DNA of 64,000 bases from Pseudoalteromonas sp. GCY (lineage in GTDB: Bacteria; Pseudomonadota; Gammaproteobacteria; Enterobacterales; Alteromonadaceae). This document shows positions 42,727 to 62,643 of the stretch, piece by piece; position 1 is the stretch's first letter, and every line of letters starts with the position of its first letter. The stretch covers positions 730,001 through 794,000 of the forward strand of contig NZ_CP068022.1 in the NCBI RefSeq assembly GCF_016695175.1, given 5' to 3'. Under the pieces are notes generated by a model. The model had not been told where the DNA came from and made no database searches. It saw only the letters and a program-made list of their open reading frames with translations. The position numbers and the translations under genes are program-made.

Positions 42727-42770
42727 ATGCTTTCTATCTCTGTAGCGTGAAATACATCATAAAAGCAACA

Positions 42771-43684: not shown

Positions 43685-43702
43685 TCAAGGTGAAACCAAG
43701 CT

Positions 43703-43743: not shown

Positions 43744-45519
43744 TTAAATGATTGTCTTACGGGTTCTTAGGCGATTAAAGTTGACGTAAGCCTCTTCACC
43801 ACAGTCTAATTTAACTGTGAAACCCGAATACTCCTCTTTGATTTCAATGAGTTTTTCGTAATTCTCTTGGAAGTAGGTTTTTGTCGGTATGGATGCGTCT
43901 TTAAAGCTGATAAACGCGCCGTATGCCCCTTCTATGGCGGTGTCGCGGCTTACTTCAATCCAATCAAGTGCACGGTTTACGTAACGGTATACCGGATTTG
44001 CTTGACCAAGGCGTTTGCTATCGTAGCTGCCGTCGTATTGTAATTCGGTATTCCACCAAGTTTGATATTGAATGGTGTACTGCGCGGTAGTATACGGAAA
44101 GGCAACACGATCCTTAGCATCTTCACAAGTATCATTGGCGTAAAACTTACCCGCAATGGCACCTAGAGTGACATAACTAAATAGTCCAAGTGGGGCATTT
44201 TGTGCAAACAGTAAAGGCGATGTAAGTGAGCGTAACAGCTCCAACTTGCCTTGTTCGGTAAGACCTGAGTCACGCACTAGCTTTGAGGTAATTTTGTGTG
44301 GCGCTGGGGCATCGAAGTCTGGTGTGAATGGTTCACCATCAAGGCTTCTGGCAAGTGTCCCTTTTAACCCCAGTTTTTTGAGATTAGCCAAAGAGTTTCG
44401 TGACCAGTCAGACATCAATGCTTCGCTATAATTCTGCTTGGTGTCCGTACCCGTAACTCGCACCTTAGCGGCAGGGAAATACTGCTTTGCAAACTGAATC
44501 AGCGTTTTTTCGGAGCCTTGCCAATAACCATACATGGTGCTTGGGTGCTTTAACGTTTTTTCGTAACCAGATGACTTTTTACACTCGCTTATATCTGGGA
44601 TCGCGTTGATTTTTAGATTAGTACCAACTAAGTTCTCGGTATCCTTTCCCGTGTCGTTAATCGCATCTTCCCACTGGCCAAGCAGTTGCCAAGTTGCTAA
44701 GTCTGTAGAGCCAACCGCCCCATTATTCCAGTTAATTTCAAAGCGATGGATTTCTTCAGGTAGCTCAAAAGCTTTGACTCTAAACTCCGTCACTATTCCA
44801 TAACTTAACGCCCCGCCTCCGCGTAGCGCCCATAAGAGATCTTTGTTTTCAGTTTCAGAGACCTCAACCCTCGAGCCATCTTGCAAAATAACGGTCGCAC
44901 CAACGAGTGACTCACAACACATCCCTTTTGCTCGCGTCCACGGGCCCCAACCGCCGCCTTGAATATACCCAGCTAATCCGACTGTAGCGCAAGTGCCGTG
45001 CGGAATGGTTAACGGCGGAATATCTTTATAACCAGATTCCGCAAGCTTTGGGACTAATTGATAAAAGCGATAGCCCGAGCCAATGTGAGCAATATAGTCA
45101 TCGCCTTCTTTCTCAATAGAGAAGTCTTTTAAACCGCTTAAATCCAGTAGCACCACATCTGTGCCACTGCACTCCCCTTCATGATCATGGCCGCCAGAGC
45201 GCACCCGAATGGGTAAGTTAAACGCTATCGCTTCTTGATAGGCGCGCATTACATCATCGGTGTTATTACACATCACTATCACCGAGGGCGAAAACTGCAA
45301 TCTTGTGTTAAAGATAAGCGCTTTAGCTTGATATTCTCTAAAGCGCTCCATCGAGGTATCACCCGTTGGCAATAAAGTCAGTAGCTGCTTTGCAGAAAAG
45401 CCGTGTTTGCTTTCTAACGCGAGTATAAATCCTTGTGTCGCACGCCAGTAGCGGTCGATACGCTTTTGTGCTTCTTCTAACTGAGATTCAGGGATAGGTT
45501 TATTGGATTGTTTAGGCAT
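43744..45519 (-). CDS. FAD-linked oxidase, berberine-bridge-enzyme type
   Basis: A 591-residue flavin oxidase: FAD_binding_4 (PCMH) domain (about 85-265) and a C-terminal BBE motif (EEAYVNFNRLR). Bicovalent FAD attachment is likely: His in RVRSGGHDHEG and Cys in HGTCATVGL, followed by the GGGWGPWTRAKG loop. This branch oxidises alcohols, aldehydes or C-N bonds, often in biosynthetic pathways. I start at ATG 45519 (AAGGAAAC upstream); the longer frame lies inside the next gene. It overlaps the TPP-enzyme gene by eight bases, so the two are translationally coupled. Third gene of the minus-strand arm. Confidence 0.88.
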   Translation of the reverse strand: MPKQSNKPIPESQLEEAQKRIDRYWRATQGFILALESKHGFSAKQLLTLLPTGDTSMERFREYQAKALIFNTRLQFSPSVIVMCNNTDDVMRAYQEAIAFNLPIRVRSGGHDHEGECSGTDVVLLDLSGLKDFSIEKEGDDYIAHIGSGYRFYQLVPKLAESGYKDIPPLTIPHGTCATVGLAGYIQGGGWGPWTRAKGMCCESLVGATVILQDGSRVEVSETENKDLLWALRGGGALSYGIVTEFRVKAFELPEEIHRFEINWNNGAVGSTDLATWQLLGQWEDAINDTGKDTENLVGTNLKINAIPDISECKKSSGYEKTLKHPSTMYGYWQGSEKTLIQFAKQYFPAAKVRVTGTDTKQNYSEALMSDWSRNSLANLKKLGLKGTLARSLDGEPFTPDFDAPAPHKITSKLVRDSGLTEQGKLELLRSLTSPLLFAQNAPLGLFSYVTLGAIAGKFYANDTCEDAKDRVAFPYTTAQYTIQYQTWWNTELQYDGSYDSKRLGQANPVYRYVNRALDWIEVSRDTAIEGAYGAFISFKDASIPTKTYFQENYEKLIEIKEEYSGFTVKLDCGEEAYVNFNRLRTRKTII

Positions 45520-47275
45520 TATTGTTTCCTTGCGCTGTGCTATTTCCACATGGACAGTCGTCCACTTTGTTACCCGTAATGGCTTCGGCGAGATCTTGTA
45601 TCGCCGGTGCGAGATCTTTTTTATCAATATTGACTTTAATGAGGTACGGCTTACATGGGTTTTCATGAAGCGTAGCAAAAACCCCATTTAGATCCGCGAC
45701 GGTCTCTACATTCAAATATTCGACAGAATACGCACTCGCTAATGATTTATAGTCCCAACGATGAAGATCATCAAATGGTGCAAATGCGCCCGCAGGAGTA
45801 AACGCACAGATATCAACAAACGACTGCTCAATTGCATACACTTGGTTGCTCATTACAAACACTGCAGTATTGAGTTTGTTATGGCTAATCGTAGACAGTG
45901 TTTGGCACATCATCATAAACCCGCCGTCGCCTGCAACCACAACACTACGTCGATTGTCAGCCAAGGCTATGCCAAGTGAACAACCGGTTTCATGACCTAA
46001 CGACCCCCAAGCAGCGTCACTAATAAAGTGACTTTCTTCAATGCCAGTTAAACGAGCCGCCATATAAAGCGATGAGCTCTCACCTAAAATAAGGTTGAAG
46101 TCACGTACCTTTTGGCATTGGGCTAGCTGCTTTTGGTATGTGCAAAAGAAGTTTTCGTAGGTGATGGCATCGCAATCTTGTACGGGACTGTTCAAATAGG
46201 GGTTTTCCGGCACCGAGCAAAGCGCACGATGCTGCATCGGGTAATGCTCAATATACACCGTTAAATCATCAATAAACTGTGCTAAATCAATACCACTAAA
46301 ACGCTCGCAGTTACCAATTCTTGCTTCTCCCATATTCACGCGGATCAATTCGTTACCTTGCGTTTTTAACATGGTCAGGTAATCGTCGGTGAATATCGCT
46401 CCCAACGCTAAAATACAATCTCGTTTACTAACAAAATCAAACGTTTCAGGCCATGACGCTTCACCCGCATAGGTGCCAACAAACAGTTCCTTCCCAAGCC
46501 CTTGCGCCTCACTTAATACTGATTTGGCTAGCGTGGTCGTGGTATACGGAATATTGAGATTACAGAGCAAGTTCTCGACTTCCCTTTGAATACCGAGCCG
46601 CGCAATCTCAATGCCTAATAATACCAGTGGCTTCTCAGCCTCTTTGAGTCGGTTGATTACTTTATCGAGTAAACTTGCCATCATCGCAGGATTAGAAGCA
46701 GGTCTTGGGATCACTAAATGACCATCTGGTTTATCACAAGCCGCGCCCCACACATTTTGCCATGCTTCTAAATAAATGGGCCGCTTTTCACTCATGGCAA
46801 GGCGTAACGCATTATCAATAATCTCAGGAGCAGAAGCGGGATCCGAAAGAATTTCACTGGCGACAGTGACATTTTCAAACACCTTTTTATCAGCGCTATA
46901 GTCGCCGGTAGAGTGATGAAATAATACGCCTGTTTCTTCAATATCTACACGGTTTTCAGCCGACGGGCTTGCCGATATCACTACCACAGGATTGCGCTCG
47001 ACATAAGCGCCAGCTATCGCGTTTAATACACTGAACGTCCCAACGCCATATTGCACCGATACCGCGCCAATGCCTCGGTATCGTGCATATCCTTCTGCTG
47101 CATAACCTGCCCCCAGTTCGGTTACATCGCCTACCGCGTCAATACCAGGAAAGTTATCCAGGGCAGTCATAAAATCTTGCACATAGTCACCTGGCACTTG
47201 AAACACCTTATCTAGGCCCAACTGCTTTAGCCGCCACAGTAAATGATCGGCAACCGTAAAGTTAGCGGTACTCAT
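45512..47275 (-). CDS. Thiamine-diphosphate-dependent 2-oxo-acid decarboxylase (PDC/IPDC-like)
   Basis: A 587-residue ThDP enzyme of the pyruvate/indolepyruvate decarboxylase type. Visible are the activating Glu in DVTELGAGYAAEGYAR, the paired His of decarboxylases in VLFHHSTGDY, and the ThDP/Mg motif GDGGFMMMCQTLS...MSNQVYAIEQ (quoted with a gap). So it probably turns a 2-oxo acid into an aldehyde, or makes acyloins. It overlaps the amine-oxidase gene by 14 bases and the FAD-oxidase by eight. The C-terminal tail has an unusual CPCG followed by Ser/Asn-rich residues, outside the core fold. Confidence 0.88.
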   Translation of the reverse strand: MSTANFTVADHLLWRLKQLGLDKVFQVPGDYVQDFMTALDNFPGIDAVGDVTELGAGYAAEGYARYRGIGAVSVQYGVGTFSVLNAIAGAYVERNPVVVISASPSAENRVDIEETGVLFHHSTGDYSADKKVFENVTVASEILSDPASAPEIIDNALRLAMSEKRPIYLEAWQNVWGAACDKPDGHLVIPRPASNPAMMASLLDKVINRLKEAEKPLVLLGIEIARLGIQREVENLLCNLNIPYTTTTLAKSVLSEAQGLGKELFVGTYAGEASWPETFDFVSKRDCILALGAIFTDDYLTMLKTQGNELIRVNMGEARIGNCERFSGIDLAQFIDDLTVYIEHYPMQHRALCSVPENPYLNSPVQDCDAITYENFFCTYQKQLAQCQKVRDFNLILGESSSLYMAARLTGIEESHFISDAAWGSLGHETGCSLGIALADNRRSVVVAGDGGFMMMCQTLSTISHNKLNTAVFVMSNQVYAIEQSFVDICAFTPAGAFAPFDDLHRWDYKSLASAYSVEYLNVETVADLNGVFATLHENPCKPYLIKVNIDKKDLAPAIQDLAEAITGNKVDDCPCGNSTAQGNNNA

Positions 47276-49136
47276 GATTAATACCTCGATAAGCGAACTC
47301 AGTGACTTCGTCTAGCGTGTCTGAACTGGCATTTGGCTGTTGCGCTGAGTGCTGACACGAGCATCCACCTTTACGGCAATCTACTGGTAAGTAATTATGG
47401 TGTGACTCAAGCCACTGTTCATACTGGGCTTTGTCTTTAGATAACCAATTAGGTGTTGGTAAAGCAAAAAACTCAGCCAATGTCGATTCAGCCGTATTTA
47501 ACGCCCCTTCTACCCAGCCTTGTTCATAGGAGTACGCTTCGCCAACAATATAGATTTCTTCACTCGCAACAGGGTGGCGCATTCTGCACATGATCTCATC
47601 GAGACGATAATTAGCTTTCCACTCATGCCAGCCACCGCCATAAGGGTCATCTCCCCATTCTTGGTAGATTGCAGAATATGGCATTGGGAGCGCTTTTTGA
47701 TTATGTAACGCTTGAATTTGGCGATGTGCCGCTTCAACCATCCCAGTGGTAATTTGATACTGGTTTTTAGGTACTATCTCATTTTCGGTATAACCTTCTG
47801 CACCATAGGCTGGCATAAAGCCTTGGTAGTGCTCGCCTTTTTCTAAGCCTTTCCAGTAAGGGATGGTGCCAATATCATTGTAAGAAGCCATTAGCAGCGA
47901 GTTGGTATTAGACTCACCATAAGTGTGCTCTACTTTACACACCCGTTCGCCTTTTTCGTTGGTCTCGTATTCAAGGCATTCTTTTTGATCGCATTCCGTT
48001 CCCATGTAATAGGTTTGGCGGATCGGTAAGTCAGTGACAGAGCGACCAGCAACAAGGCCCAAACTGCGCCACCAAGGTTGCTCGTAAGCCATAAACATCT
48101 TAATCGCTTTTTGGATAAGCACAGACGGAATATTTTCTTTCAACCAAGGGTCGTCAAAGAACGGCGATTCAATTAGCTCAAGTGAGCGTCTTGGCATAGC
48201 CAAAATAAGCCGCTTCACTTTGACGCTATATGCTGGCGCATCTTTATCAACCACTTTCCCAATGCTATTTATTTCCGTTGGTTGAAAAGTGAGCTCATAA
48301 CGATACTCGCCACAATGATGCAGCTCAATTTTTGCAAGTCGATGCAACATGTTAACGCGCTTACAGCGGTCAAGGCAGCCTGGTGCCGCTGCAAACTCTT
48401 CACATAACTTCAGCGGTAATGCCTGAAAACCATCTTTGAGGGTTTTAAATACCGTATCATCGCTATATTCAGTGGCAGGTAACTGAGTAACCGCGCTGGC
48501 ATTCGCCACATTGGCATCGTAGCCGCCCGCTTCTTTCATAAAGAGATATGCTTCGTTACTCAGCACATGCTCAAGCAAGTTCCAAAAGCCAAAGCGCCAG
48601 ATTTCCTTGCCAAATACTTTGACTTTCATCTGCTCTGCGAGAGACATATCGGCAAAGCCCGGGCAGATAAGGTTCATGACTTTAACTTGAAGATCTTCCG
48701 GTCCATAGCCTCGCTCGGTTTCTTCAAGCTTGTATGGGATTTTGTCTGGACATTCGGCGAAATCACGATATCTAAAATATTGCCCTCGCAGATAAAAAAG
48801 GTTGTTTTCACTGCCCGCTTCAGGAGAGCTTTCTACATTTGAGGGGTATAACGGCAACTTTGAGCCCATTGGGAAGTCTTTGGTTTGGAGTTTTAGCTCA
48901 TCCACCAGCATACTCACCATCACATGATCATCAGGAATGAAGCGCATTCCGCCTAGCTCAGCCACAACGTTGGGCAACCCCGGAAGCGTGCGACTATACA
49001 AACGACCACCAATACGATCACTATATTCAAATAAGCCTATGCGATGAGTATCACCAAGTTCTTGTTGAAGACGCCATGCACTATACACACCTGATACACC
49101 GCCACCCACAATGGCAATATCTAGTTCTTTATTCAT
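47262..49136 (-). CDS. Putative L-amino-acid oxidase / flavin amine oxidase
   Basis: A 624-residue FAD enzyme. The N-terminal dinucleotide site is IVGGGVSGVYSAWRL with RIGGRL and AELGGMRF; the C-terminal FAD site is IYIVGEAYSYEQGWVEGALN. This fits L-amino-acid oxidases and related tryptophan monooxygenase-type enzymes, which give a 2-oxo acid, NH3 and H2O2. Its product could feed the decarboxylase encoded immediately downstream. After the fold there is a Cys-rich tail, DCRKGGCSCQHS, and a long polar end. ATG 49136 follows AAAGGAG. It is first in the minus-strand arm; secretion is not predicted. Marine Pseudoalteromonas amino-acid oxidases are known antibacterial H2O2 sources. Confidence 0.83.
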   Translation of the reverse strand: MNKELDIAIVGGGVSGVYSAWRLQQELGDTHRIGLFEYSDRIGGRLYSRTLPGLPNVVAELGGMRFIPDDHVMVSMLVDELKLQTKDFPMGSKLPLYPSNVESSPEAGSENNLFYLRGQYFRYRDFAECPDKIPYKLEETERGYGPEDLQVKVMNLICPGFADMSLAEQMKVKVFGKEIWRFGFWNLLEHVLSNEAYLFMKEAGGYDANVANASAVTQLPATEYSDDTVFKTLKDGFQALPLKLCEEFAAAPGCLDRCKRVNMLHRLAKIELHHCGEYRYELTFQPTEINSIGKVVDKDAPAYSVKVKRLILAMPRRSLELIESPFFDDPWLKENIPSVLIQKAIKMFMAYEQPWWRSLGLVAGRSVTDLPIRQTYYMGTECDQKECLEYETNEKGERVCKVEHTYGESNTNSLLMASYNDIGTIPYWKGLEKGEHYQGFMPAYGAEGYTENEIVPKNQYQITTGMVEAAHRQIQALHNQKALPMPYSAIYQEWGDDPYGGGWHEWKANYRLDEIMCRMRHPVASEEIYIVGEAYSYEQGWVEGALNTAESTLAEFFALPTPNWLSKDKAQYEQWLESHHNYLPVDCRKGGCSCQHSAQQPNASSDTLDEVTEFAYRGINHEYR

Positions 49137-49771
49137 TTTAATATGCTCCTTTAGGCAATTACTTTAAAAGCATATTTAAGGGTGATGATTTTATCTATTA
49201 CACCGAGTTACAACAGATTACAGAAACATTACGGCAACTACAAAAACCACTTTTCACTAAACACGTATAGATATGTAACTCAATGTTTTTAGCCAAAGCG
49301 CTTAGCTAATCGCATTTGTTTTGATTAACGCAAATGCCGTACAAACGGCCATGAATCAACTCGGTGAATAAATCGGCATAGTCCTATTTATTACTTATTT
49401 CGTCCAAAATATGTTTATTAATTAAACAAGTCACTTAGCATGTTCTTGCTTTTCCTTATCACCCGTTAACGCTGACTCAATTAAAACAATTGAAATGAAA
49501 GTTTCACAAAAAAACTTCTAAAAAACTCAATTTTTACGCAAACAAACATTGACCTTACCACCGTGGCAATCTTTACAGTTATTTAACTTGGTAGATTCAT
49601 CCTTAAGGTGAAGTTGACTTTTTATTAACCTCACTTTGTTAGTAGGGCATGGAAATTAATTACTTCGTGCGTTACCGGTTTGGCACATGCTTGTCGGTAA
49701 ACAAACTAATTAGGCCGTTACTCAAAGGTATTAAACACCTTTAACTCAACATATAGATAGAGACTAACGAA
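49137..49771. other. Divergent control region of the enzyme cluster, 635 bp
   Basis: A long AT-rich spacer with no credible gene. Its key element is the CueR-like promoter at 49549-49579 for the plus strand. The minus-strand promoter for the amine-oxidase gene is not clear; I saw no second TTGACC box on that side. The transcript from the CueR-like promoter would have a leader of about 185 nt, with an AAAGGT/ACCTTT hairpin near 49724-49742. Confidence 0.5.
49549..49579 (+). promoter_or_regulatory. CueR-like MerR-type promoter of the plus-strand enzyme arm
   Basis: TTGACC (49549-49554), a 19-bp spacer and TACAGT (49574-49579). Its first 11 bases (TTGACCTTACC) and its 19-bp spacing are identical in the promoters of the copA gene (56152-56182) and the copper-chaperone gene (56240-56270) in this window. 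The stretched 19-bp spacing is the hallmark of MerR-family activation. The right half of the dyad is weaker here (TGGCAATCT) than in the copA site. cueR itself lies 3.7 kb downstream. Confidence 0.75.
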
Positions 49772-50632
49772 ATGAAATTAAAAGAAAAAATAGTTGGAAA
49801 AGTAGAGCAAAAACTCCTAGAGATGATCCGTATGGATGTCGCTGAACACTACCCGACTGTCTCCGCCTTTTATCTAGAAGGTGGGCATTTTGATCCGCGT
49901 TATTCCGCTACCGAATTCTCAATAGATTCAATGGTAAAGGTGTTAAATGTCGCTAACAACGCGATTTTAGAGCACAAGAAAAAACTTAAAGTGGTGCTTG
50001 GCGTGTTGATAGACGATCTGGGCTTGCAGTGCGGTAGTGAGTCTTGTGATATTTCTGCATCCCCAGCAATGACCACCGACAGCCAAGGGCTTGCGCCATT
50101 ACCTGAGGAGTTAGAAGCCGTATTAAGTGATTACAGCATTGTAAAACGCGACCGCTTAGTACTTCAGGGTGAGCGCAATTGTAAAAACCGTGGGATCCAA
50201 TCTTTACGTAAAATCATCTCGCAAGATTTAGCAAGTTTCCCACAATTGTCACTTGCAACGAGCAACGGCATGACGAAAATTCTATTCGAAAACAGTAAGG
50301 GAGTAGACATCGTTTTAGCTGAATCAAAAGATAAGGATGTATGGACTGCAAAATGCCCGCTTATCATGGCGCAACACTATAAAGACACTTACCAAAAAGC
50401 ACTGAAAATGAACCCTCAGGCAGGGGTATTCCACATTATGGACTTCTCTGAAATGGATGATTTTCACAAAGTCGTGAACGGTACTGAAGTAGCGTTAGGA
50501 CTTTTCCTACAAGACGAAAGCCTTGGCGACAATATCGTTAAGATCTCCAATATCTTCTTGTCTGACTTTGATATGGAAGATTATTCCATTAACACCCAAA
50601 CCAGCACCCTAGCCGAAGCTTGCGAAGCGTAA
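49772..50632 (+). CDS. Unknown protein of the copper-linked cluster, 286 aa
   Basis: I do not recognise this protein. It is soluble, with no signal peptide or helix anchor, and mixed alpha/beta. It has eight Cys, including a CxxxxC pair (LQCGSESCDIS, about residue 91), a CK in ERNCKNRG and KCPL, and ends AEACEA, so it could bind a metal or carry a thiol. An N-terminal amphipathic helix, the ILEHKKKLKVVLGVLIDDL strand and the KILFENSKGVDIVLAESKDK region suggest a Rossmann-like core. It is first in the plus-strand arm, directly behind the CueR-like promoter, and precedes the cysteine desulfurase. I infer a scaffold or novel enzyme for the pathway. Confidence 0.75.
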   Translation: MKLKEKIVGKVEQKLLEMIRMDVAEHYPTVSAFYLEGGHFDPRYSATEFSIDSMVKVLNVANNAILEHKKKLKVVLGVLIDDLGLQCGSESCDISASPAMTTDSQGLAPLPEELEAVLSDYSIVKRDRLVLQGERNCKNRGIQSLRKIISQDLASFPQLSLATSNGMTKILFENSKGVDIVLAESKDKDVWTAKCPLIMAQHYKDTYQKALKMNPQAGVFHIMDFSEMDDFHKVVNGTEVALGLFLQDESLGDNIVKISNIFLSDFDMEDYSINTQTSTLAEACEA

Positions 50633-50690
50633 CGCATGCATTTATCCGCTTCAATTTGACTGTTGCCCCAATTTTATACGGAGATTTTTT

Positions 50691-51899
50691 ATGTCACTCA
50701 TTACAGCACTAGAGAGTAAGTCCACCACGGAAGCGTCGCTACGCTTTCCTATCTATTTAGACCATAACGCCACAACACCGTGCGACGAAGCAGTGTTACA
50801 AGCCATGTTACCTTACTTTTGTAACGACTTTGGTAATGCTGCGAGCATGTATGGTTTACATGGCTGGAACGCCCATAAAGCGGTCGAACAAGCGCGTGAA
50901 AAAATTGCAGATGCCCTTGGCGCACAACCTGAAAATTTTATCTTTACTTCTGGCGCGACTGAAAGCAACAACTTAGGGATCCGCGGCGTGTTTCGTGCTT
51001 GTAATCACAAAGGCAAGCACATTATTACTTCGTCGATTGAGCACCCAGCAACGCTTGCAACACTTAGAGATCTAGAACAGGAAGGCGCTAGCGTTTCTTA
51101 TCTTGAGCCGCTACCAGATGGCAGCTTTGATATCGATGCAATGAAGGCCGCAATCACGCCTGAAACAATTTTAATCACCGTGATGTACGCAAATAACGAA
51201 ATCGGCACCATTAATCCAATCGACGACATCGCCGTTATTGCAAAGCAACATGACATTCTATTTATGTCTGACGCCACACAAGCGCTTGGCAAGGTCGATA
51301 TCAATCTGACCACCTGCCCTATTGATATTTTAACTTGCTCGGCACACAAGATTTATGGCCCTAAAGGGGTTGGCGGCCTGTATTTAAGACATCAGCATGG
51401 CAACAGAGTGGTTGATATTAGACCGCAGATCACAGGTGGTGGAAGCGAGCAAGGGCTACGCGGTGGCACGCTAAATGTACCTGGCATTGTTGGTTTTGCT
51501 AAGGCAGTGGAACTTGCACAGCGAGAACTGAGCAATGGCGCAATTGACAAAGTAGAGCGGTTAAGAGACAAGCTAGAAGATGGTTTATTGGAGCTACAAC
51601 AGGTGCAAGTCAATGGCATGAGCGAAGAAAGACTTCCGCATGTTTGTAACGTCTCTTTTCATGACACCGACGGTAAAAAAATGCTGAGCTTATTAAAGAA
51701 AAGCATTTCAGTCAGTACCGGCTCAGCTTGTTCGTCAAGCAACCTATCGCCAAGCCACGTATTAACCGCACTTGGGCTATCGGATGAACTGGCGCAGGCA
51801 ACCATACGCTTTAGCCTAGGCAGGCATACTACAGAAGCCGAAATTGACTTCGCACTCAACAAGGTTAGAGAAGTCGCTGCGCTAACTTTACTCGTTTAA
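50691..51899 (+). CDS. Cysteine desulfurase (NifS/IscS-like)
   Basis: A 402-residue class V PLP enzyme that removes sulfur from cysteine. Seen: LDHNATTPCD at the start, ATESNN (PLP phosphate region), SSIEHPA, the PLP Lys in SAHKIYGPKG, RGGTLNVPGIVG, and the sulfur-accepting Cys in STGSACSSSNLSPSHVL. The family usually supplies sulfur to Fe-S clusters or thio-cofactors; the lack of isc/suf neighbours and its position behind a copper-type promoter suggest a dedicated sulfur donor for a metabolite. A good GGAG site (ACGGAGATT) precedes the ATG. Confidence 0.92.
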   Translation: MSLITALESKSTTEASLRFPIYLDHNATTPCDEAVLQAMLPYFCNDFGNAASMYGLHGWNAHKAVEQAREKIADALGAQPENFIFTSGATESNNLGIRGVFRACNHKGKHIITSSIEHPATLATLRDLEQEGASVSYLEPLPDGSFDIDAMKAAITPETILITVMYANNEIGTINPIDDIAVIAKQHDILFMSDATQALGKVDINLTTCPIDILTCSAHKIYGPKGVGGLYLRHQHGNRVVDIRPQITGGGSEQGLRGGTLNVPGIVGFAKAVELAQRELSNGAIDKVERLRDKLEDGLLELQQVQVNGMSEERLPHVCNVSFHDTDGKKMLSLLKKSISVSTGSACSSSNLSPSHVLTALGLSDELAQATIRFSLGRHTTEAEIDFALNKVREVAALTLLV

Positions 51900-51948
51900 A
51901 TAATACTAAATTATTCCCATTCAAATACTTAAGGAGAAAAATATAACA

Positions 51949-53244
51949 ATGGAAAACCTATCAAATTTAGCCAATGCACTTGATTACTCGGACATTATTC
52001 ACCTTGAGTTTTACGTGCAGGAGCAGCTTGCAAAGGGGAAAGAAATATGTGATTTGATCATTGGAGATTTTGACACGCAACAATTTCCGATGCCCGACTA
52101 CCTTACCGCACAGATCCAGCAAGCTTACGAGAATAAGCAAAATGATTATCCCCCGCTTGAGGGGGTGTTATCACTTCGCGATGAGGTAGCAAAACAAACT
52201 AAAAAGCGCTTTAACGTCAGCTACAATCCAGATACGGAGATGCTGATCTCTGGCGGTGCAAGGCCTTTGCTGTATTCTGCGATGCTCGCCACAGTGAGCG
52301 CAGAAGACAAGGTGATCTACCCTGTGCCTTCTTGGAATAACATGTTTTACACCACCATGTGTGGTGGCAAGCACGTGCCAATTGAAACCAGCGAAGCAAA
52401 TCAGTTTTTACCTACAGCGGAACAGATCCAAGCGCATATATCTGACGCGCGCCTTATCACCTTATGCTCACCGCAAAACCCTAACGGCTCCATGTTTTCA
52501 AAGCAACAGCTCAGTGAAATCTGCAATATGGCTGTGGCAGAAAACGCGCGCCGCAGAGCGATAAACGCCAAACCGCTCTACGTTATCTACGACCAAGTGT
52601 ACTGGATGCTGACAATGCAAGAGGTTGAGCATTATCATCCGGCGTCGCTTTGCCCTGATATCAAGCCTTACTTAATTGTGGTTGATGCCGGCACCAAAGC
52701 TTTTGCCGCAACAGGCATTCGAGTTGGGTGGGCGACAGGCCCACACGAAGTGATAGCAAAAATGCAGGTGATCCAAGAACATATAGGTGCAATGGCTCCG
52801 ACGGCAGAGCAACTTGCCACCGCGGTGTTATTTCAAAATGAAGCCTATCTACAAAGTTATTTAGCCGGCTTTAAAGAAAAAATACTAGCCTCAATGGCGG
52901 TACTGCATCAGGGTGTTCAAGATATGAAAGGCGCAGGCATGGCAATCGATTCATTTATACCAAACGCCGGCATTTATATGACCTTGAAGATCGACGCCAT
53001 CAATATGGAAACGCCCGATGGAAACGTGCTCGAAAATGCAGATCAAGTCAGTCGGTATTTAATTGATAGCGCAGGGTTAGCACTGGTGCCATTCGCCAGT
53101 TTCGGCTGTCGCTCTAAAGCGTCACAACTGTGGTATCGCGCTGCCGTTTGTACTATTTCGCCGAGTGAAATTGAAGCGGCGCTGCCAAGATTACAAAGTG
53201 CACTGCTCGCACTTACCCAGTCAAAACTATTACTTGAGGCTTAG
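51949..53244 (+). CDS. Aminotransferase class I/II (PLP-dependent)
   Basis: A 431-residue fold-type-I aminotransferase. Visible: YPPLEGVLSLRDEVA (substrate region), SGGARPLLYSAML, the PxNPNGS motif as SPQNPNGSMF, Tyr and Asp of YVIYDQVYW, the PLP Lys in DAGTKAFAATGIRVGW, and the C-terminal Arg in LWYRAAVCTI. It resembles aspartate/aromatic-type aminotransferases. With the amino-acid oxidase and decarboxylase it could interconvert an amino acid and its oxo acid. A strong AAGGAG site precedes ATG 51949, and a bidirectional terminator ends the arm. Confidence 0.9.
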   Translation: MENLSNLANALDYSDIIHLEFYVQEQLAKGKEICDLIIGDFDTQQFPMPDYLTAQIQQAYENKQNDYPPLEGVLSLRDEVAKQTKKRFNVSYNPDTEMLISGGARPLLYSAMLATVSAEDKVIYPVPSWNNMFYTTMCGGKHVPIETSEANQFLPTAEQIQAHISDARLITLCSPQNPNGSMFSKQQLSEICNMAVAENARRRAINAKPLYVIYDQVYWMLTMQEVEHYHPASLCPDIKPYLIVVDAGTKAFAATGIRVGWATGPHEVIAKMQVIQEHIGAMAPTAEQLATAVLFQNEAYLQSYLAGFKEKILASMAVLHQGVQDMKGAGMAIDSFIPNAGIYMTLKIDAINMETPDGNVLENADQVSRYLIDSAGLALVPFASFGCRSKASQLWYRAAVCTISPSEIEAALPRLQSALLALTQSKLLLEA

Positions 53245-53258
53245 CGCTATTCTTTACA

Positions 53259-53296
53259 AAAAAAGCCAGTCTTCATAATTGAAGACTGGCTTTTTT
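53259..53296. terminator. Strong bidirectional terminator
   Basis: AAAAAA plus an 11-bp stem (53265-53275 with 53280-53290) and TTTTTT, loop TAAT. It separates the aminotransferase gene from the convergent cueR gene. Confidence 0.9.
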
Positions 53297-53320
53297 ACGT
53301 TTAATTGTTCTAGCCCTCGG

Positions 53321-53731
53321 CTACTTTAAACTATTTTGGCAAAGCCCATCTAAGATTGGACAGTTTGCATTTTCGTCACCGCTACAGTTATCCGACAACT
53401 GCTTTAAGGTTTCACGCATCTGTTGTAGTTCATTGATTTTATGTTCAATCTCATTCAAGTGATGCTGCGCTATCGATTTGACTTCACGACTAGTGCGGTC
53501 TGGGTTTTGTAACAAATCGAGTAAAGACTGGATCTGCGCAATAGGAAACCCCAGTTTTCGTGCTTGTTTTATCACACCTAGCAATTGTAATTGTTGCGAG
53601 TCGTACAGCCGGTAACCCGCTTCACTTCGTTTGCTGCACTTTAGTAGCCCGCTTGCTTCATAATGGCGGATCATCTTTGCAGAGAGTCCAGTACGCTGCG
53701 CGGCTTCGCCGATTGTGATCAGTTTTTCCAT
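53321..53731 (-). CDS. cueR: Copper-responsive MerR-family regulator CueR
   Basis: A 136-residue MerR-type activator. The helix-turn-helix is ITIGEAAQRTGLSAKMIRHYEASGLL (given as ITIGEAAQRTGLSAKMIRHY, residues 4-23, then EASGLL). A dimer helix follows, and the C-terminal metal loop reads NCSGDENANCPILDGLC, matching the CueR Cys-x7-Cys (CSGDENANC) that binds a single Cu(I) linearly. Start ATG 53731, behind AAAGGAG; the longer frame lacks support. It follows copA by 5 bp in one transcript, so CueR is produced under its own control. Its likely targets are the three TTGACCTTACC promoters in this window. Confidence 0.93.
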   Translation of the reverse strand: MEKLITIGEAAQRTGLSAKMIRHYEASGLLKCSKRSEAGYRLYDSQQLQLLGVIKQARKLGFPIAQIQSLLDLLQNPDRTSREVKSIAQHHLNEIEHKINELQQMRETLKQLSDNCSGDENANCPILDGLCQNSLK

Positions 53732-53736
53732 GACGT

Positions 53737-56115
53737 TTACTCCTTTGGTTGCCAACGTTGCAATAACAACGCATTGCTAATGACTAGTAAACTACTGGCC
53801 GCCATCGCCGCACCTGCAAAAATAGGGTTAAGGTAACCCAGTGCTGCCAATGGAATGCCAATGACATTAAAGATAAATGCCCAAAATAGATTTTGCTTGA
53901 TTTTGCGATAGGTTAATTTTGCCATCGCTAAAGCAGATGCCACTAAGCTTGGCTCGCCACGCATCAGCGTCATTGCCGACGCGCTTACCGCCACTTCCGT
54001 ACCGGTAGCCATTGCGATACCCAGATCAGCCTGTGCAAGCGCAGGGGCGTCATTTATCCCATCGCCTACCATTGCTACACAGTAACCTTGCTGTTGGGCA
54101 TTAGCAATATACTCAGCTTTGTGCTCTGGCAGTACTTGCGCCTTATAATCGTCCAGTTCCAGCAATTTAGCATTGTACTGTGCACTACTTTGGCTGTCTC
54201 CGGTCAACATTGCAACTTTAATTCCCTGCTGCTTAAGCTGTTTGACCGCCGTAAAGGCATGAGCTTTAAGCTCGTCAGTAAAGTAGAATAGCGCCAAAAA
54301 CTCGCAGCTCAGTTCACTATTTTGGCTCACTAACCAAGATAAAGAAGCGCCCGGTATTTCTTCTGGTAGCGCAGACAAGGTTAAGCCTAACTCCTGCATC
54401 CAAAAACCGCTCCCCAAATAGACTGTTTTATCTTGGTATTGTGCCTTGACGCCTCTACCCGCAACCACTTTAAAGTCGCTTACAGGAAGTAACGACAATT
54501 GCTTTTCTTGTGCTTTATTGACCACAGCCTTGGCAAGCGGATGTTCACTATATTGCTGTAACGATGCTGCAAGCTGTAATACATCATCTTGATGATACGT
54601 AAAGGTGTGCATATTGCTAAGCTCTGGTTTGCCCACCGTAAGCGTGCCCGTTTTATCAAAAATGACCATATTGATGGCGGTTGCTTGCTCCAATGCACCA
54701 GCATCTTTTACTAAGATCCCATAGCGCGCGGCAGTGCCAGTACCTGCCATAATCGCGGCAGGTGTTGCTAAACCAAGCGCACACGGGCAAGCAATAACGA
54801 GAACAGCCACCGCATTAAGAATACCAGTTGGCCAATCTCCAGTGCTGAGCCCCCATGCAAAAAACGTAAAGAGCGCAATCACCAATACCGCTGGTACAAA
54901 TACCGCACTCACTTTATCCACCAACGCTTGTACTGGTGCTTTCGCGCCTTGTGCTTGTTCTACCAAACGAATAATTTTGGCCAAAGTTGATTCCGCGCCA
55001 ACACTGGTTGCATCCACTTCAAGCACGCCATCAAGATTCACCGAACCACCAGTAACTTTATCTGTTTGTGCTTTATAAACAGGCACGCTTTCACCGCTAA
55101 TAAGCGCTTCATCTACCTGTGAGTGACCCTCAACTACAACGCCGTCAACCGGTATACGCTCACCAGGTTTGATCAGTAGTCGTTCGCCGCTTTTTACTGC
55201 CGCAGCTGGGACTTCTTGCCAACTGTTATCACGCCAGACCATAGCCGATGTTGGCCTTAAGCTTTCAAGCGCTTTAAGAGCGCTGGTTGTACGCCGCTTG
55301 GCTCGGTGTTCAAGATACTTACCCAACAGTACCAAACTCAACACGGCACTGCTGCTTTCAAAGTATAAATGTGGAGCGCCATGCTCACCGCTGAATGTCC
55401 ACCACAAATAAAGCGACAGGCCATACGCTGCACTGGTGCCGATGGCCACCAGTAAATCCATATTCCCCGTCCCCGCTTTTATTGCTCCCCATCCGGCACG
55501 ATAAAAGCGCGCACCAAAATAAAACTGAACAGGCGTGGCCAGTGCCCATTGCATCCACGCCGGGAGCATCCAGTTTTGGTTAAACAGCATGGCAAACATG
55601 GGTAACACCATAGGTAGAGTGAGCGTCAGTGACGCCACTGCTGGGAACCAATCGGCGCGATAAAAGGGAGTTGCTGCCACTTGTTCGTTTGACTCATCCG
55701 AGTCTGCTTGTGGCTGTACCACAGTGTAACCAGCATCATTGAGCTTGGCTTCTATTTCAGCGAACGGTAACTCTGCCACTAAAGTTAAGGTTAGCTTTTC
55801 GGTCGCTAAATTGACCTCAGCCTTAATTACCTGAGGTAATGCTTGCGCCGCCTTTTCAACTCGGCTCACACAAGACGCGCAAGTCATGCCTTTAACTTGA
55901 TATTGCACTTCACTGGTATTGATCTTATAGCCGGCATCTTTTACCGCATTCACCAACGCCGACACTTCCGCACTGCCCTCTACCGTCACAGCTTCCAATG
56001 CTAAGTTAACACTGGCGCTGACAACGCCAGACACTTTCTCTAAGGCTTTCTCAACTCGGCCAACGCACGAGGCGCATGTCATGCCCGAAACATTAAATTT
56101 TATTACCTTGTCCAT
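53737..56115 (-). CDS. copA: Copper-exporting P1B-type ATPase CopA
   Basis: A 792-residue Cu+ efflux ATPase of the inner membrane. Two N-terminal heavy-metal domains (about 5-70 and 72-138) each carry GMTCASC. About eight helices follow, with the ion-binding CPC in VIACPCALGLATPAA. The phosphorylation Asp is in IFDKTGTLT, the nucleotide-domain His in YSEHPLAKAVV, and the hinge GDGINDAPALAQADLG is present. I start at ATG 56115, behind GGAG and 30 bp after the predicted transcript start; the longer frame is leaderless. It shares a transcript with cueR and has a CueR-type promoter. Confidence 0.95.
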   Translation of the reverse strand: MDKVIKFNVSGMTCASCVGRVEKALEKVSGVVSASVNLALEAVTVEGSAEVSALVNAVKDAGYKINTSEVQYQVKGMTCASCVSRVEKAAQALPQVIKAEVNLATEKLTLTLVAELPFAEIEAKLNDAGYTVVQPQADSDESNEQVAATPFYRADWFPAVASLTLTLPMVLPMFAMLFNQNWMLPAWMQWALATPVQFYFGARFYRAGWGAIKAGTGNMDLLVAIGTSAAYGLSLYLWWTFSGEHGAPHLYFESSSAVLSLVLLGKYLEHRAKRRTTSALKALESLRPTSAMVWRDNSWQEVPAAAVKSGERLLIKPGERIPVDGVVVEGHSQVDEALISGESVPVYKAQTDKVTGGSVNLDGVLEVDATSVGAESTLAKIIRLVEQAQGAKAPVQALVDKVSAVFVPAVLVIALFTFFAWGLSTGDWPTGILNAVAVLVIACPCALGLATPAAIMAGTGTAARYGILVKDAGALEQATAINMVIFDKTGTLTVGKPELSNMHTFTYHQDDVLQLAASLQQYSEHPLAKAVVNKAQEKQLSLLPVSDFKVVAGRGVKAQYQDKTVYLGSGFWMQELGLTLSALPEEIPGASLSWLVSQNSELSCEFLALFYFTDELKAHAFTAVKQLKQQGIKVAMLTGDSQSSAQYNAKLLELDDYKAQVLPEHKAEYIANAQQQGYCVAMVGDGINDAPALAQADLGIAMATGTEVAVSASAMTLMRGEPSLVASALAMAKLTYRKIKQNLFWAFIFNVIGIPLAALGYLNPIFAGAAMAASSLLVISNALLLQRWQPKE

Positions 56116-56151
56116 TTCTATCTCCGCAAACGCGTTCATTCTCATTGTTGG

Positions 56152-56182
56152 ACACTAACCCTTACCCTCATGGTAAGGTCAA
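56152..56182 (-). promoter_or_regulatory. CueR-type promoter of copA-cueR
   Basis: On the minus strand: TTGACC (56177-56182), 19 bp, TAGTGT (56152-56157). The spacer holds a near-perfect dyad, ACCTTACC and GGTAAGGGT, the classic CueR operator. Predicted transcript start about 56145. Confidence 0.85.
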
Positions 56183-56239
56183 ACAAAATTGTTCATTCAT
56201 CTAACAGAAGAAAAAGGAGTTTTCATAGTTAAATAGTAG

Positions 56240-56270
56240 TTGACCTTACCATCAAGGGAAGCTTCACAGT
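56240..56270 (+). promoter_or_regulatory. CueR-type promoter of the copper-chaperone gene
   Basis: TTGACC (56240-56245), 19 bp, CACAGT (56265-56270), with ACCTTACC and a weaker right half GGGAAGCT. It shares its first 11 bases and spacing with the copA promoter and the enzyme-cluster promoter. Confidence 0.8.
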
Positions 56271-56298
56271 GCAAACTCTTTAATTCACAAAGGAAATA

Positions 56299-56514
56299 AT
56301 GATGTTAAGACTAAGAGTAGAAAAAATGGTCTGTGGTCACTGTGTAAAAGCAATCACAGAAGCGATGCAGGCGGCTGATAGCCAAGCGCAAGTGAATGTC
56401 CGCCTAGATGATAAAATCGTTGAAATTTCAAGCACCAAAGGAGAAGGCGACGTTATCGCTATTATTCGTAATGCAGGCTATAGCGCAGAACTCATCAACG
56501 AAAGCTTTGCCTAA
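56299..56514 (+). CDS. Heavy-metal-associated copper chaperone (CopZ-like)
   Basis: A 71-residue single HMA (ferredoxin-like) domain: LRVEKMVCGHCVKAITEAM with the Cu(I)-binding CGHC (CxxC), and the usual DVIAIIRNAGYSAE ending. The length is that of CopZ-type chaperones, which hand Cu(I) to CopA and to CueR. It has its own CueR-type promoter and an AAAGGA ribosome site, divergent from copA. Which partner it serves is inferred from context. Confidence 0.88.
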   Translation: MMLRLRVEKMVCGHCVKAITEAMQAADSQAQVNVRLDDKIVEISSTKGEGDVIAIIRNAGYSAELINESFA

Positions 56515-56747: not shown

Positions 56748-57773
56748 ATGAGCTTTATCGGCGCCGGTGCAGGCAACGAAGCCCAGAGCGTGCAATACAA
56801 TGTCGACGCGCAAACTGCCAAATTACGAACCTCAGGTTCTGCTTCTTGGCGACACAACAATCCAGCCTTACTGCCATTAAATATTAGTGCAAAGCGAAAT
56901 CAAGCGCTTGGACAAGCCTATCGTATTGCAATATTTCCCGACCGTGCTGCGGGAGAGCAAGCCTTTTTAGAAGAAATCGAAAGAGCCAAATACGGCGATT
57001 TTACCTTAGGCCAAATGGTCAATGCGTTTATTCCTGACTACATCATCGACCCACCACAATGGGATGAACAAAACCAAACGGCTGTTCTACCGCATCTTGA
57101 GCCAATAACGGGAATGGATGTTAACCTGCCAATTAGCGACCCACAAGCATTTTTAGACTTGGTAACCCTTAAACTGGGTTGGCAAGTAGGAACTGAGAGT
57201 GATGTTGCCAGAGATTTTGAAGCCGAAGCCAGACAAGCGTCTATCGTGTCAAACGCGAACGTTCTCATTAACGGTAGAACCGCTGTGCATAGCGGCAGCG
57301 GCGGTGTGTTAAGCACAGTAGACGTTTGTTTGACTAAGATAGGCAAAGTGGTTGTGCCTATTCCTTATGGCAACATCGCCCGCTCATCAGACGCCGCAAG
57401 CGTTGCCAGCTCCGTAAAAATTCAAGGTAACGGTGCGGCCAATATCAAGTCTAACTTTTCAAAAAGTACGGGAGATCAACCCGGTAATAAAAAAGGTATC
57501 GCTAGTCGAACATTGGGTAAAAAAGCGGAGTTTCTGCAAGGCAGCTTTGATGTTTACATCGAGGGAAAACCGGCGGTTAGACAAGGAGATTTAATGGTAT
57601 CTAATAATAAAAATACGCCCCCCGCACCATTGAACCAGCCCGGTGGTGCGACTCCTGCAGGCCTTGATGTTGTGCTTGGCGCAGAGCCACTAAGCCAAGC
57701 CGGTACGAATAAGATCAATATAAAAGTGTCGGGCAGTAGTAAACCTAGCGATGAAGAGGTGAAGATAGGATGA
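56748..57773 (+). CDS. PAAR-like (DUF4150) type VI secretion carrier protein
   Basis: A 341-residue protein. The N-terminal part (about 30-140) resembles phage P5-like/lysozyme-associated domains (SWRHNNPALLPL, then YRIAIFPDRAAGEQAFLEEI and YGDFTLGQMVNAFIPDY). The C-terminal DUF4150 PAAR-like domain (about 165-290) has VDVCLTKIGKVVVPIPYGNI, NIKSNFSKSTGDQPGNKKG and VYIEGKPAVRQGDLM. PAAR proteins sharpen the type VI spike and bind effectors. Its stop overlaps the toxin gene by four bases (ATGA), so it is the probable loader for the large protein that follows. A signal peptide is absent, as expected. Confidence 0.85.
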   Translation: MSFIGAGAGNEAQSVQYNVDAQTAKLRTSGSASWRHNNPALLPLNISAKRNQALGQAYRIAIFPDRAAGEQAFLEEIERAKYGDFTLGQMVNAFIPDYIIDPPQWDEQNQTAVLPHLEPITGMDVNLPISDPQAFLDLVTLKLGWQVGTESDVARDFEAEARQASIVSNANVLINGRTAVHSGSGGVLSTVDVCLTKIGKVVVPIPYGNIARSSDAASVASSVKIQGNGAANIKSNFSKSTGDQPGNKKGIASRTLGKKAEFLQGSFDVYIEGKPAVRQGDLMVSNNKNTPPAPLNQPGGATPAGLDVVLGAEPLSQAGTNKINIKVSGSSKPSDEEVKIG

Positions 57774-60700
57774 GCCACACTTTACCAACCAAAACCAATG
57801 CTAACGGTAATTTTAGAGAACTTGTTTTTGAGGGCTATGCAAGCGACAAAGAAGTGGTGTCTTTGATGCTCAAAGACACCTCGGTTGATGGCACAAAAGA
57901 AGGCTATTATAAGGTCCCCCTTTACACTTCAAACACGGTAGACCAACAAAGCAGCGATGCCGACATTGAGCTGGTGCACATTTATCCATTTTTATACGAC
58001 ACGCCAGAGCAGCAACTACAATCGGCCTCTCCGGTAACCAGTGGATTTATCTATATTTATGTCGATGGCTTTTTATGGCGTGAACTACAAGTTATCGAAC
58101 CTGAAGACTTTGACGCTCCGGCGCTATTCTCAGATGTGAATTTGTATTGGCAAAAAGGTTTTTTAAGTTGGAAAAAGTCGGCCAATAAACCTAACTCACG
58201 ACCGCAAGGCACGCGTGCAGCAACCTGTAAGCCAACCAGCAGCATTCTCGTCCCGCATAAACTAAATGGCAACGAAGTAAGCGTAGAAATCGCATGGTCT
58301 GAAGTGCAGTGGTCATGGGAGCAGATCTTGTTGTTTGGCGGGTTTAATGAACAGGATCCGCGCTTAAATACCGGCACACCACTCGCTGACGAAGAAAGAC
58401 ATTGCCCCGCCCCAGGAGATGCAGCAGCGCTCAGAGCACAGCGCATGACTAAGCTGGATAACTTAGGGCAATTTGCCACAGGCTATAACGACCAAGGCAA
58501 AGTAGTTAACACCCCGACACTTCATCAAAAACTGCACCTTCCAGAGCGCGATAAAATCGCCCAAGTGCCGATTTTTGACGGGATCCATATGGCTCGATAT
58601 TTCATGTCACAAATTCAAGATCTCACCACGGATATTCAGCACTTACTCAATAAATTATCAGGGTTAGATAGTGCAACCGGTGAAATTGATCTGCAACAAC
58701 AAGCTAAATATGAGCTCGCCAGCTTTATGGTACAGGTTTTTTACCATCAAGCCGATTCGATTTTAGATAAAGACATTGAAATTCAAAGCAGTGGAGAGAA
58801 GCTTGTAGAGTCAGATGAAGACGCGGTCGATTTTGCCAATAAATTAAAAGACTGGCGCACTTCTCATTTAGAGGAAGATAAATTCTTTAAGTTTTTGGAA
58901 GAAAAGGCCTTCCAAAAACTTGCTCGCCGCATTGCAGAAATCTCTGACGAACTAGTCGAGTTCTTAAACCAAGAATCTCTTAGTGCAGGTTTTACTGAAT
59001 GCTTCAAAGACTATGCCTACCAATCAGATCTGAGGTTCTTTGAAGCATACGACTTGGTCACCGATGTATTTCTCGCGTTAAAGCCTCACCCAGCCGCACC
59101 GCTTGCACACCTTAATACAGACAAAGAGTTTTGGCATGAGTTAAGTTCAGGCTATCAGGGGCAAGATTTTATCCTGCAATGTCTGGGTCAACACCCAACA
59201 AAACCAGCTAAGCAAATCACCCAATTTTTGTTTCCAAAGCCCACAGGCGACAAACTACACGACTACGAAAAAGCGGAATATGATCGCTTTGCATTGCCTT
59301 TAACTAGCGCCAAAATACAAAAGATCCATGATCAAGAAGCCGTTTTGCCACAAGAAGAGAGTGAGCAAATGGGGCGCCGCCTCTCCCAAGTGATTATGGG
59401 TTTAGCAGGCAGTTTATTCGAAATTCCAGAGGCCGCTTATAACCTCTCTACACATCCGGGGACGCTTGGGGAACAAAAGGCCCAAACTCGTGAGGCAATG
59501 GATGCAACACAACATGAGATAGCGCAGTCAGAACAAGCCCTTATCAACGCTGAAAGAGAAAAAGCAAAAGCATTTAAAGAGTTACAAGAAAAGCGTGCTG
59601 AATATGAGTATAAGAAGAGTGTGCTTGAAAACTTAACAGAGCAAGAACGTGGAATGAGCAAAGCGCAGCTTGATCAACAATTAGAGCTGGAGCGTGCGCG
59701 TCTACGAGAGTTAGAGGCTAAATTTGCTAAAGCAAAAGTTGCCGTCAGTCGCTCTAGAAAACAGGTCAACTCTTTTGTGAAGGTAAATAATGCTTGGAAG
59801 AAGTATCCGTTTGCAAAGCTCATTGATGCAAAAGCGGATGTGTTGCAACCTTTGATGCGCTTGGTCGATATCTCAGCACCGGGGTACTTAGTTGAAGTAG
59901 AAATGAGAGTGCAGGATTACCTCAACGGGAATTTTCCTGAAGGGTATATGCCACTTGATCCTCAGTCTCGAAAATTGGCTGCAGAGAAGCAAATTAAAGA
60001 ACTCAACCAAATTATTCGCGGCAGTAATAAACGCAAAATAGACGTTGGATATAGAGGCTCTAAGCTCAAACTATCGTTAGAAGACGTACTAAATTTAAAC
60101 AAACGACTTGAATTTCTAACCCAGTCTCTCAATCAAGCGGAAACCATCACAACGATAGAAAGTAAAAACAAAACCATTGCATATTTGATAAAAATTACGG
60201 GTGCTGATGTCTCAGCCAAGTCAGCAGAATCAACAGCCCAAGCAATATATGATACGGCTGTAGAAGAGGCAAAACAGTATGCAACAGAGTTAGATAATCA
60301 ACATGCAACACTTAAAAAGTTATCTGATAGGCTCGCAAACTTACAAAAATGGCAAAATGCGGCTGTTACGGAGTCTGTATCTGGGCAGTCATTAAAGGGA
60401 GGAATGGCGGGTATACTCGGTATTGTATATATCTTTGAAGTCGCTAACTTTCGACAAGCCTTTTTGAATTGGGATATTAGTGGAGATAGAAAACTTGTTG
60501 ACTTCATGGGTAGTATTGCTGATCTAGCAGCGATTCATTTCTCTACTCTCTCAATGGTCACAGAGATGAAAGTTGGGTTACCTAGCCTGCGCCAATATCA
60601 AGAATTTCAACAGTACAAAATGGCGAAAGGAAATCTCAGCGCCGTTCGTAAGTTTGGTCCTGAGTTTGCAAAAAAAGCAAACATCATTACATGGACAGCT

Positions 60701-61678: not shown

Positions 61679-61691
61679 CTAAAGGCTACCC

Positions 61692-62633
61692 ATGAGAGAC
61701 AAGTTAAAATCTAATCAATCAGCTCTTGCTTTTATAGCAATTTTGGTAAAAAAAATTGTTGAAAAGGTGATGGAAACTGAGGGTAAAAAGGAGACGCAAA
61801 CGTTAACTCCTCAAGCGCCTGTAGATAAGGTAGTGCATGATCGGCCAATAGAAGAAACACCGCTGCTAAAAATAGAGGACTCGATACCACGAGACTTTAA
61901 AATTAGTAAAGGCATGCAAAAAGTGGCTGTAAATAGTAAAGCAGACTTTGTCTTGCAAGATAATAACGTGCTCTCATCGAACCAACGTATCGCATTAGGC
62001 GGAGCTGAATTTGCGCGAGCTGGGAAACTTGCGAATGTCGTTTTTGCTTATATGGCCTCAATATTTGCGCTTGTTTGTCTCCCCGTATACCTGAAAGAGT
62101 CTGAGCCTCATATCCTTTACCTTATGATTGGGTTAGTGGTGTTTGCAAGCTTCGTTTTTTATCGAGTTCATAGAATTAAACACCATACATCTGAAGTGCT
62201 ACGGGTCGACTTCTTCCGAAATACAGGCCTTGTCACTTTTCCCATTGGCAATAACGAAGGAAGCTTCTCGTTAACACTTGATGAAGTTGAACTATATATT
62301 GTAAAGGTCTCATCGGGTAAAGGTGTGAGGCATAACCTAGCGTTTTTAGCCCCACTGCGATACCCAAAAACACTTAAGCGCCAGACACTTTATTCAACCG
62401 ATTGGGAGCCAAAGGATATGGACAGCAGCGTGCAGCTGTGGAGTGAAATACACCGTTTTATGGATACCACTCAGCCCATACCAAGTTCGTTTTATAGAGG
62501 TTGGCAAGAAACGATAGAAAGCCCCTATCTTGACCACGAAGACCATATTCAAATATTAGGTGAAGATTTAGTAAAGCAAGCCCCCTTTTATGACCTAAAA
62601 AATAACCGTCCGTTAGATAAAGTGTTTTGGTAG
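61692..62633 (+). CDS. Two-helix membrane protein, likely immunity protein (DUF6708-like)
   Basis: 313 residues, with a Lys-rich N-terminus (KKIVEKVMETEG), a motif RPIEETPLLKIEDSIPR, two adjacent helices (about 118-133 and 140-157) and a C-terminal cytoplasmic domain (RVDFFRNTGLVTFPIGNNEG, SEIHRFMDTTQPIPSSFY, ending LDKVFW). The arrangement (14 bp after the toxin, a second paralogue directly behind) fits an immunity protein that neutralises a membrane-active toxin. The family name is from recall and not verified. The 3' end of the gene is nearly identical to that of the next gene. Confidence 0.75.
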   Translation: MRDKLKSNQSALAFIAILVKKIVEKVMETEGKKETQTLTPQAPVDKVVHDRPIEETPLLKIEDSIPRDFKISKGMQKVAVNSKADFVLQDNNVLSSNQRIALGGAEFARAGKLANVVFAYMASIFALVCLPVYLKESEPHILYLMIGLVVFASFVFYRVHRIKHHTSEVLRVDFFRNTGLVTFPIGNNEGSFSLTLDEVELYIVKVSSGKGVRHNLAFLAPLRYPKTLKRQTLYSTDWEPKDMDSSVQLWSEIHRFMDTTQPIPSSFYRGWQETIESPYLDHEDHIQILGEDLVKQAPFYDLKNNRPLDKVFW

Positions 62634-62643
62634 CAATAACATA

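Follow-up and report, generated by a model that had tools for sequence, protein, structure and literature searches.

A CueR-type promoter ahead of a cysteine desulfurase operon in Pseudoalteromonas suggests synthesis of a copper-relieving sulfur compound

Why should an operon of seemingly biosynthetic enzymes lie behind a promoter of the kind that drives a copper pump? The question is raised by a 64,000-nucleotide stretch of the genome of the marine bacterium Pseudoalteromonas sp. GCY (contig NZ_CP068022.1, positions 730,001 to 794,000; hereafter the window), in which genes for an orphan protein (UNK), a cysteine desulfurase and an aminotransferase (together, the trio) adjoin cueR, copA and a copper chaperone gene. 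The response to copper excess is usually viewed in terms of pumps, chaperones and oxidases. We propose, with a probability of roughly one half, that the trio is activated by Cu(I)-bound CueR and makes a sulfur compound that relieves copper stress. Judged from the sequence, CueR control of the trio (49772–53244) is highly likely, and copA, copZ and the trio very probably belong to a single regulon.

Exact copies of TTGACCTTACC were found in the window at 49549–49559(+), 56172–56182(−) and 56240–56250(+), with a one-mismatch copy at a fourth place, 4435. When the window was dinucleotide-shuffled 100 times, this 11-mer occurred 0.02 times on average and at most once. At all three sites TTGACC is separated by 19 bp from a −10-like hexamer, which confirms the near-identical sites with 19-bp spacing reported in the initial annotation. 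Taken alone, the 11-mer is fairly ordinary in the genome as a whole (five occurrences versus four for the reversed control), and the two copies outside the window lack such a promoter layout, as judged by eye. A fuller pattern, TTGACCTTRCCN5GG, matches the 5.47-Mb genome at exactly three places, all of them these sites; the pattern, we stress, was picked after the sites were already known. With one mismatch allowed it is at background (12 matches versus 10 for the reversed control). As expected of CueR targets, a CCTTNCC/GGNAAGG dyad lies within the spacer and cueR adjoins the genes in question. The right half of the dyad fits the consensus at 6/6 bases in the 56182 box and 5/6 in the 56240 box, and is weak in the box ahead of UNK.

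Only copA/copZ boxes, five in number, were used to train a 31-bp matrix: two from the window and one each from an uncultured Saccharospirillaceae bacterium (L010), Deefgea salmonis (L011) and Serratia oryzae (L012). In all four sources, its best match outside the training set was the box ahead of UNK, which scored 27.2 in the window (next best, 16.9), 25.2 in L010 (16.9), 23.3 in L011 (15.2) and 21.9 in L012 (12.7). When the copper boxes of each source were left out of training, the UNK upstream regions scored 20.0, 22.6, 23.2 and 19.2, respectively, values reached by none of 500 dinucleotide shuffles at each locus. An alignment of eight distinct Pseudoalteromonas genomes shows no variation in 30 of 31 box columns, compared with 78 of 193 leader columns; the distance from the −10 end to the UNK start is 88–199 bp in eight loci. 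The weak right half-site would suit a box that is incidental, or that serves another MerR-type activator, leaving the trio outside copper control. We consider this extremely improbable, because identically spaced boxes recur independently across four lineages and a phylogenetic footprint marks the site. A short open reading frame in the leader (approximately 49650–49745, by eye) was considered as a precursor of a ribosomally synthesized and post-translationally modified peptide and rejected, its ATG being lost in four of eight Pseudoalteromonas rows.

The relatives come from one genome-contig scan, which gave seven loci: four from Pseudoalteromonas (L006–L009) and L010–L012. The fetched stretches of all seven carry the whole trio, copA and cueR. 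The initial annotation had named as evidence against its proposal the case of close relatives that retain the enzymes but have lost the promoter pattern. The box is kept in all seven and lacking only in a far more distant, copper-unlinked locus, L022, described below. Judged from these relatives, the source genome probably falls within the Pseudoalteromonas piscicida/flavipulchra group. The trio is followed by cueR-copA on the opposite strand in the window and L006–L010; in D. salmonis a divergent cueR-copA lies upstream of the trio, and in S. oryzae the trio is followed by copA-cueR on the same strand. CopZ-like genes were found by eye close to the trio in both of the latter. Identities to the window in L010, L011 and L012 are 69%, 63% and 51% for UNK, 76%, 71% and 66% for the desulfurase, 65%, 61% and 54% for the aminotransferase, 84%, 46% and 46% for CueR, and 73%, 49% and 42% for CopA. 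In L011 and L012 the trio (51–71%) is thus better conserved than CueR and CopA (42–49%), indicating that the copper link is not just carried along with a single conserved segment. Because three other bacterial groups also have this trio next to a copper pump and behind a switch of the same kind, it probably makes a copper-relieving sulfur compound.

The same arrangement occurs in three more Pseudoalteromonas genomes (L025, L026 and L028); L023, L024 and L027 repeat L008, L009 and L007. In genome samples that include the source genome itself, the UNK marker was present in 1/369 genomes of the class, 1/398 of the phylum and 2/394 of the order. A single plasmid record, from Pseudoalteromonas sp. 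NC201, was returned by each of four queries, and none of 20 candidate stretches from viral contigs encodes a relative. UNK relatives also occur in Serratia rubidaea, Pantoea coffeiphila, Acinetobacter pittii and metagenome contigs; among 80 candidates examined for Serratia kin, no CopA exceeded 64% identity. Among the papers listed by searches of an open-access library, none was about this trio as judged from titles and the opening words of abstracts.

The features of the locus are collected in Table 1. The gene calls of the initial annotation stand, with the reservation that the chaperone falls below the CopZ cut-offs. The trio genes are co-directional, with gaps of 58 bp (UNK to desulfurase) and 49 bp (desulfurase to aminotransferase); cueR-copA follows on the opposite strand, and then the CopZ-like gene. 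CueR may in reality start at an internal ATG (MEKLITIG), which is where the L010 protein begins. The desulfurase matches Aminotran_5 (Pfam, E = 2.5e-81), and its motifs, SAHK[IV]YGPKG and STGSACSSS, are kept in all five aligned rows, placing it in group I (NifS/IscS). Its closest solved sequence is an IscS-type desulfurase (3lvj). It scores 435.5 bits against the NCBIfam IscS equivalog, whose cut-off is 643.2, and the genome has a separate housekeeping IscS gene (740.4 bits).

Table 1. Genes and CueR-type boxes of the copper-linked locus (window positions)
Feature	Position	Strand	Remarks
CueR-type box of trio	49549..49579	+	TTGACC-19-TACAGT; −10 end to UNK start codon, 192 bp
UNK, 286 aa, orphan	49772..50632	+	No convincing Pfam/NCBIfam match; fold from predicted models
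NifS/IscS-like cysteine desulfurase	50691..51899	+	Motifs SAHKIYGPKG (PLP-lysine) and STGSACSSS (catalytic-cysteine loop)
Fold type I aminotransferase	51949..53244	+	Nearest are aspartate aminotransferases; PLP-lysine motif DAGTKAF kept
CueR	53321..53755	−	NCBIfam TIGR02044, 154.4 bits (cut-off 147.4)
CopA copper-exporting P-type ATPase, two HMA domains	53737..56145	−	Pfam/NCBIfam
CueR-type box of copA	56152..56182	−	TTGACC-19-TAGTGT
CueR-type box of CopZ-like gene	56240..56270	+	TTGACC-19-CACAGT
CopZ-like HMA copper chaperone, 71 aa	56299..56514	+	Pfam HMA, E = 1.8e-07; under NCBIfam CopZ cut-offs

Structure prediction assigns UNK a class I aminoacyl-tRNA-synthetase-like Rossmann domain. For each of two UNK models, all 50 fold matches listed are class I synthetases or the ligase MshC; identity to the best-Z arginyl-tRNA synthetase (ArgRS) is 6–11%. 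Residue counts show C87, C92, C195 and H202 to be invariant. In the models, C87 and C92 lie in a loop predicted to be mobile and C195 beside H202. Four basic residues (K125, R126, R135 and R140) are conserved in 31–32 of 33 sequences. The pattern [SG]GGxDS, typical of PP-loop sulfurtransferases of the TgsB/TtuA type, is absent from all 33. A profile search of PDB sequences gave no match up to E = 1, and a search with a single UNK sequence gave one chance match (E = 1.5).

What the trio might make is suggested by L022 (genome G1159, same order). There, UNK (35% identity), a desulfurase (37%) and an EamA transporter lie in a row at 7911–10803, the transporter starting directly behind the desulfurase stop; the arrangement is found in 1/44 genomes of the G1159 family. 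No match to the aminotransferase, copA or cueR was found within the 19.9 kb examined. The coupling to an exporter argues for an exported small molecule, and suggests that UNK and the desulfurase are the core of the system. We consider it likely that these two proteins act together. The same locus bears on a different explanation, in which the trio is a sulfur supply for copper stress. Copper attacks iron-sulfur enzymes, and the trio might back up iron-sulfur or tRNA-thiolation chemistry hurt by Cu(I), with UNK as a sulfur carrier or tRNA-modifying enzyme and no metabolite formed. An extra NifS/IscS-like desulfurase behind a copper promoter, copper-linked trio loci without an exporter, and basic UNK residues that could bind RNA are all consistent with this. 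However, it leaves the aminotransferase without an evident role, the EamA exporter beside UNK and the desulfurase in L022 speaks against it, and the rarity of the family (38 clusters reported among 8000 candidates scored) would be odd for housekeeping repair. We regard sulfur supply as unlikely.

For the copper-relieving sulfur compound, we propose the following sequence of events. A rise in cytoplasmic Cu(I) would lead CueR to untwist the 19-bp spacer at 49549, so that the trio is made along with the pump and chaperone. The desulfurase would form a persulfide from cysteine and pass this sulfur to UNK, where the invariant cysteines C87, C92 and C195 may receive it. UNK, a stand-alone synthetase-like Rossmann domain, would then place the sulfur on an amino-acid-derived substrate that the aminotransferase makes or finishes. 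The product would be a small sulfur compound, for which a thioacid, a thiol or a thioamide come into question; it would make Cu(I) less toxic, by binding it or in some other way. The elements that can be read from the sequence are the promoter architecture and its conservation, the trio itself, the desulfurase and aminotransferase motifs and the predicted fold; the transfer of sulfur to UNK is our inference. We slightly favor a sulfur-containing small molecule as the product, and suggest only tentatively that it binds copper.

Several observations weigh against this proposal. Of the three boxes, that at 49549 is the weakest, with 4/6 consensus bases in the right half, and L022 has none at all, 443 of 500 shuffles scoring as high or higher. 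No exporter lies inside the trio at the copper-linked loci. The fold matches of UNK rest on predicted models with Foldseek TM-scores below 0.5, and Argonautes and ferredoxin-NADP reductases are also among the top Foldseek rows. Sequence-level kinship with the cysteinyl synthetase (CysRS) or ArgRS was looked for and not found: hhalign gave probabilities of 0.3% and 0.2%, no better than the controls (0.2% and 0.1%), with 27/30 and 29/30 fetched loci passing the length filter. Finally, HIGH and KMSKS are not conserved in the 33 UNK sequences, where look-alikes (HxAH/HxAN in two, KI[SA]K in five) share no common place; the motifs thus lend no support to ATP-dependent activation. This last point also touches the idea of UNK as a ligase, similar to MshC or to the synthetases, that couples an amino acid with a partner to give a copper-buffering low-molecular-weight thiol; the presence of MshC among the fold matches is in keeping with such an enzyme, which we nevertheless find quite improbable. 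Cyclodipeptide synthases, which use charged tRNA, have the fold of class I synthetases but neither HIGH nor KMSKS. UNK, a stand-alone class I-like domain of 286 residues that likewise lacks these motifs, could draw its amino acid from charged tRNA in the same style, with the desulfurase modifying the product. However, the 33 sequences gave no Pfam match to such families at E up to 1; the 50 fold rows listed for each model, which are the visible part of longer lists, include no cyclodipeptide synthase. We regard this reading as very improbable.

The genes on the other side of the trio promoter gave a different result. Positions 43744–49136(−) form one operon encoding a VioA-like amine oxidase, an indolepyruvate-decarboxylase-like ThDP enzyme and a BBE-type FAD oxidase; cysteine-rich C-terminal tails (CRKGGCSC and DDCPCGN) occur among its products. 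The operon is divergent from the trio and carries no CueR-type box. Among 99 Pseudoalteromonas genomes, the UNK marker was found in 7 and the amine oxidase in 13. Six genomes have both, one (G822) has UNK without the oxidase, and seven have the oxidase without UNK; the sequence fetched for L008 also lacks the operon. It was therefore rejected as a part of the system and is probably a separate biosynthetic cluster. The initial annotation had proposed copper-induced CueR control of the trio and had named 43744–49136 alongside it; the matrix, shuffles and conservation support CueR-type control for 49772–53244, whereas the lack of a box and the differing distribution in the genus do not support it for 43744–49136. 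Farther out, in 42695–43702, seven tandem copies of an approximately 148-bp direct repeat lie between 42726 and the BBE gene. On the far side, 56748–63618(+) encodes a Tox-PAAR-like protein, a 1302-residue protein and two similar proteins of 313 and 324 residues without a Pfam match, possibly effectors and immunity proteins of type VI secretion.

If CueR does switch this conserved set of enzymes, sulfur-compound synthesis would be a recurrent second answer to copper. UNK is a ready research target, since its family is unstudied, its predicted fold resembles that of synthetases and it is linked to a sulfur donor. It is doubtful, but conceivable, that UNK represents a new enzyme family in which a synthetase-like domain has lost HIGH and KMSKS and gained a three-cysteine site, using sulfur from a dedicated desulfurase to build a copper-binding thio-metabolite, switched on by CueR at excess copper in several bacterial groups and invented separately from fluopsin C.

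Compared with the known CueR regulon (copA and copZ), the locus has the same spacer, the same dyad geometry and an adjoining cueR; its targets, however, extend beyond transport and chaperone proteins to enzymes. UNK shares its predicted fold with class I synthetases such as ArgRS and with MshC, yet differs from ArgRS in being a single domain without the signature motifs or a sequence-level match. Fluopsin C is a thiohydroxamate whose biosynthetic enzymes include heme-oxygenase-like oxidases. As the initial annotation had anticipated, the trio enzymes are different: none of the fluopsin enzymes was detected by Pfam or NCBIfam among the nine proteins of 43744–56514, to which the search was confined. 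The trio may be a new type of copper-linked metabolite cluster, as that annotation suggested. Fluopsin C is described as a secreted copper-containing molecule made from a five-gene operon in Pseudomonas aeruginosa, and copper stress can accompany synthesis of such a small molecule (PMC11419262). To that extent the common logic is a dedicated operon and a sulfur-containing, copper-linked product, the latter being our proposal for the trio. For 6-thioguanine, the operon is described as encoding a nucleotide alpha hydrolase and an EmrE-like efflux protein in addition to a cysteine desulfurase (PMC7994395). In tgs of Staphylococcus chromogenes and ycf of Erwinia amylovora, the desulfurase TgsA, the Rossmann-type sulfur-transfer protein TgsB and the efflux protein TgsD, as presented there, resemble the desulfurase, UNK and EamA of L022 (PMC7994395). 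In contrast to these operons, UNK lacks SGGxDS, the trio has no NUDIX or HAD partner, and a copper promoter is in place. The trio shares its logic with the fluopsin C and 6-thioguanine operons; where tested, it has no enzyme in common with either of them, apart from the desulfurase.
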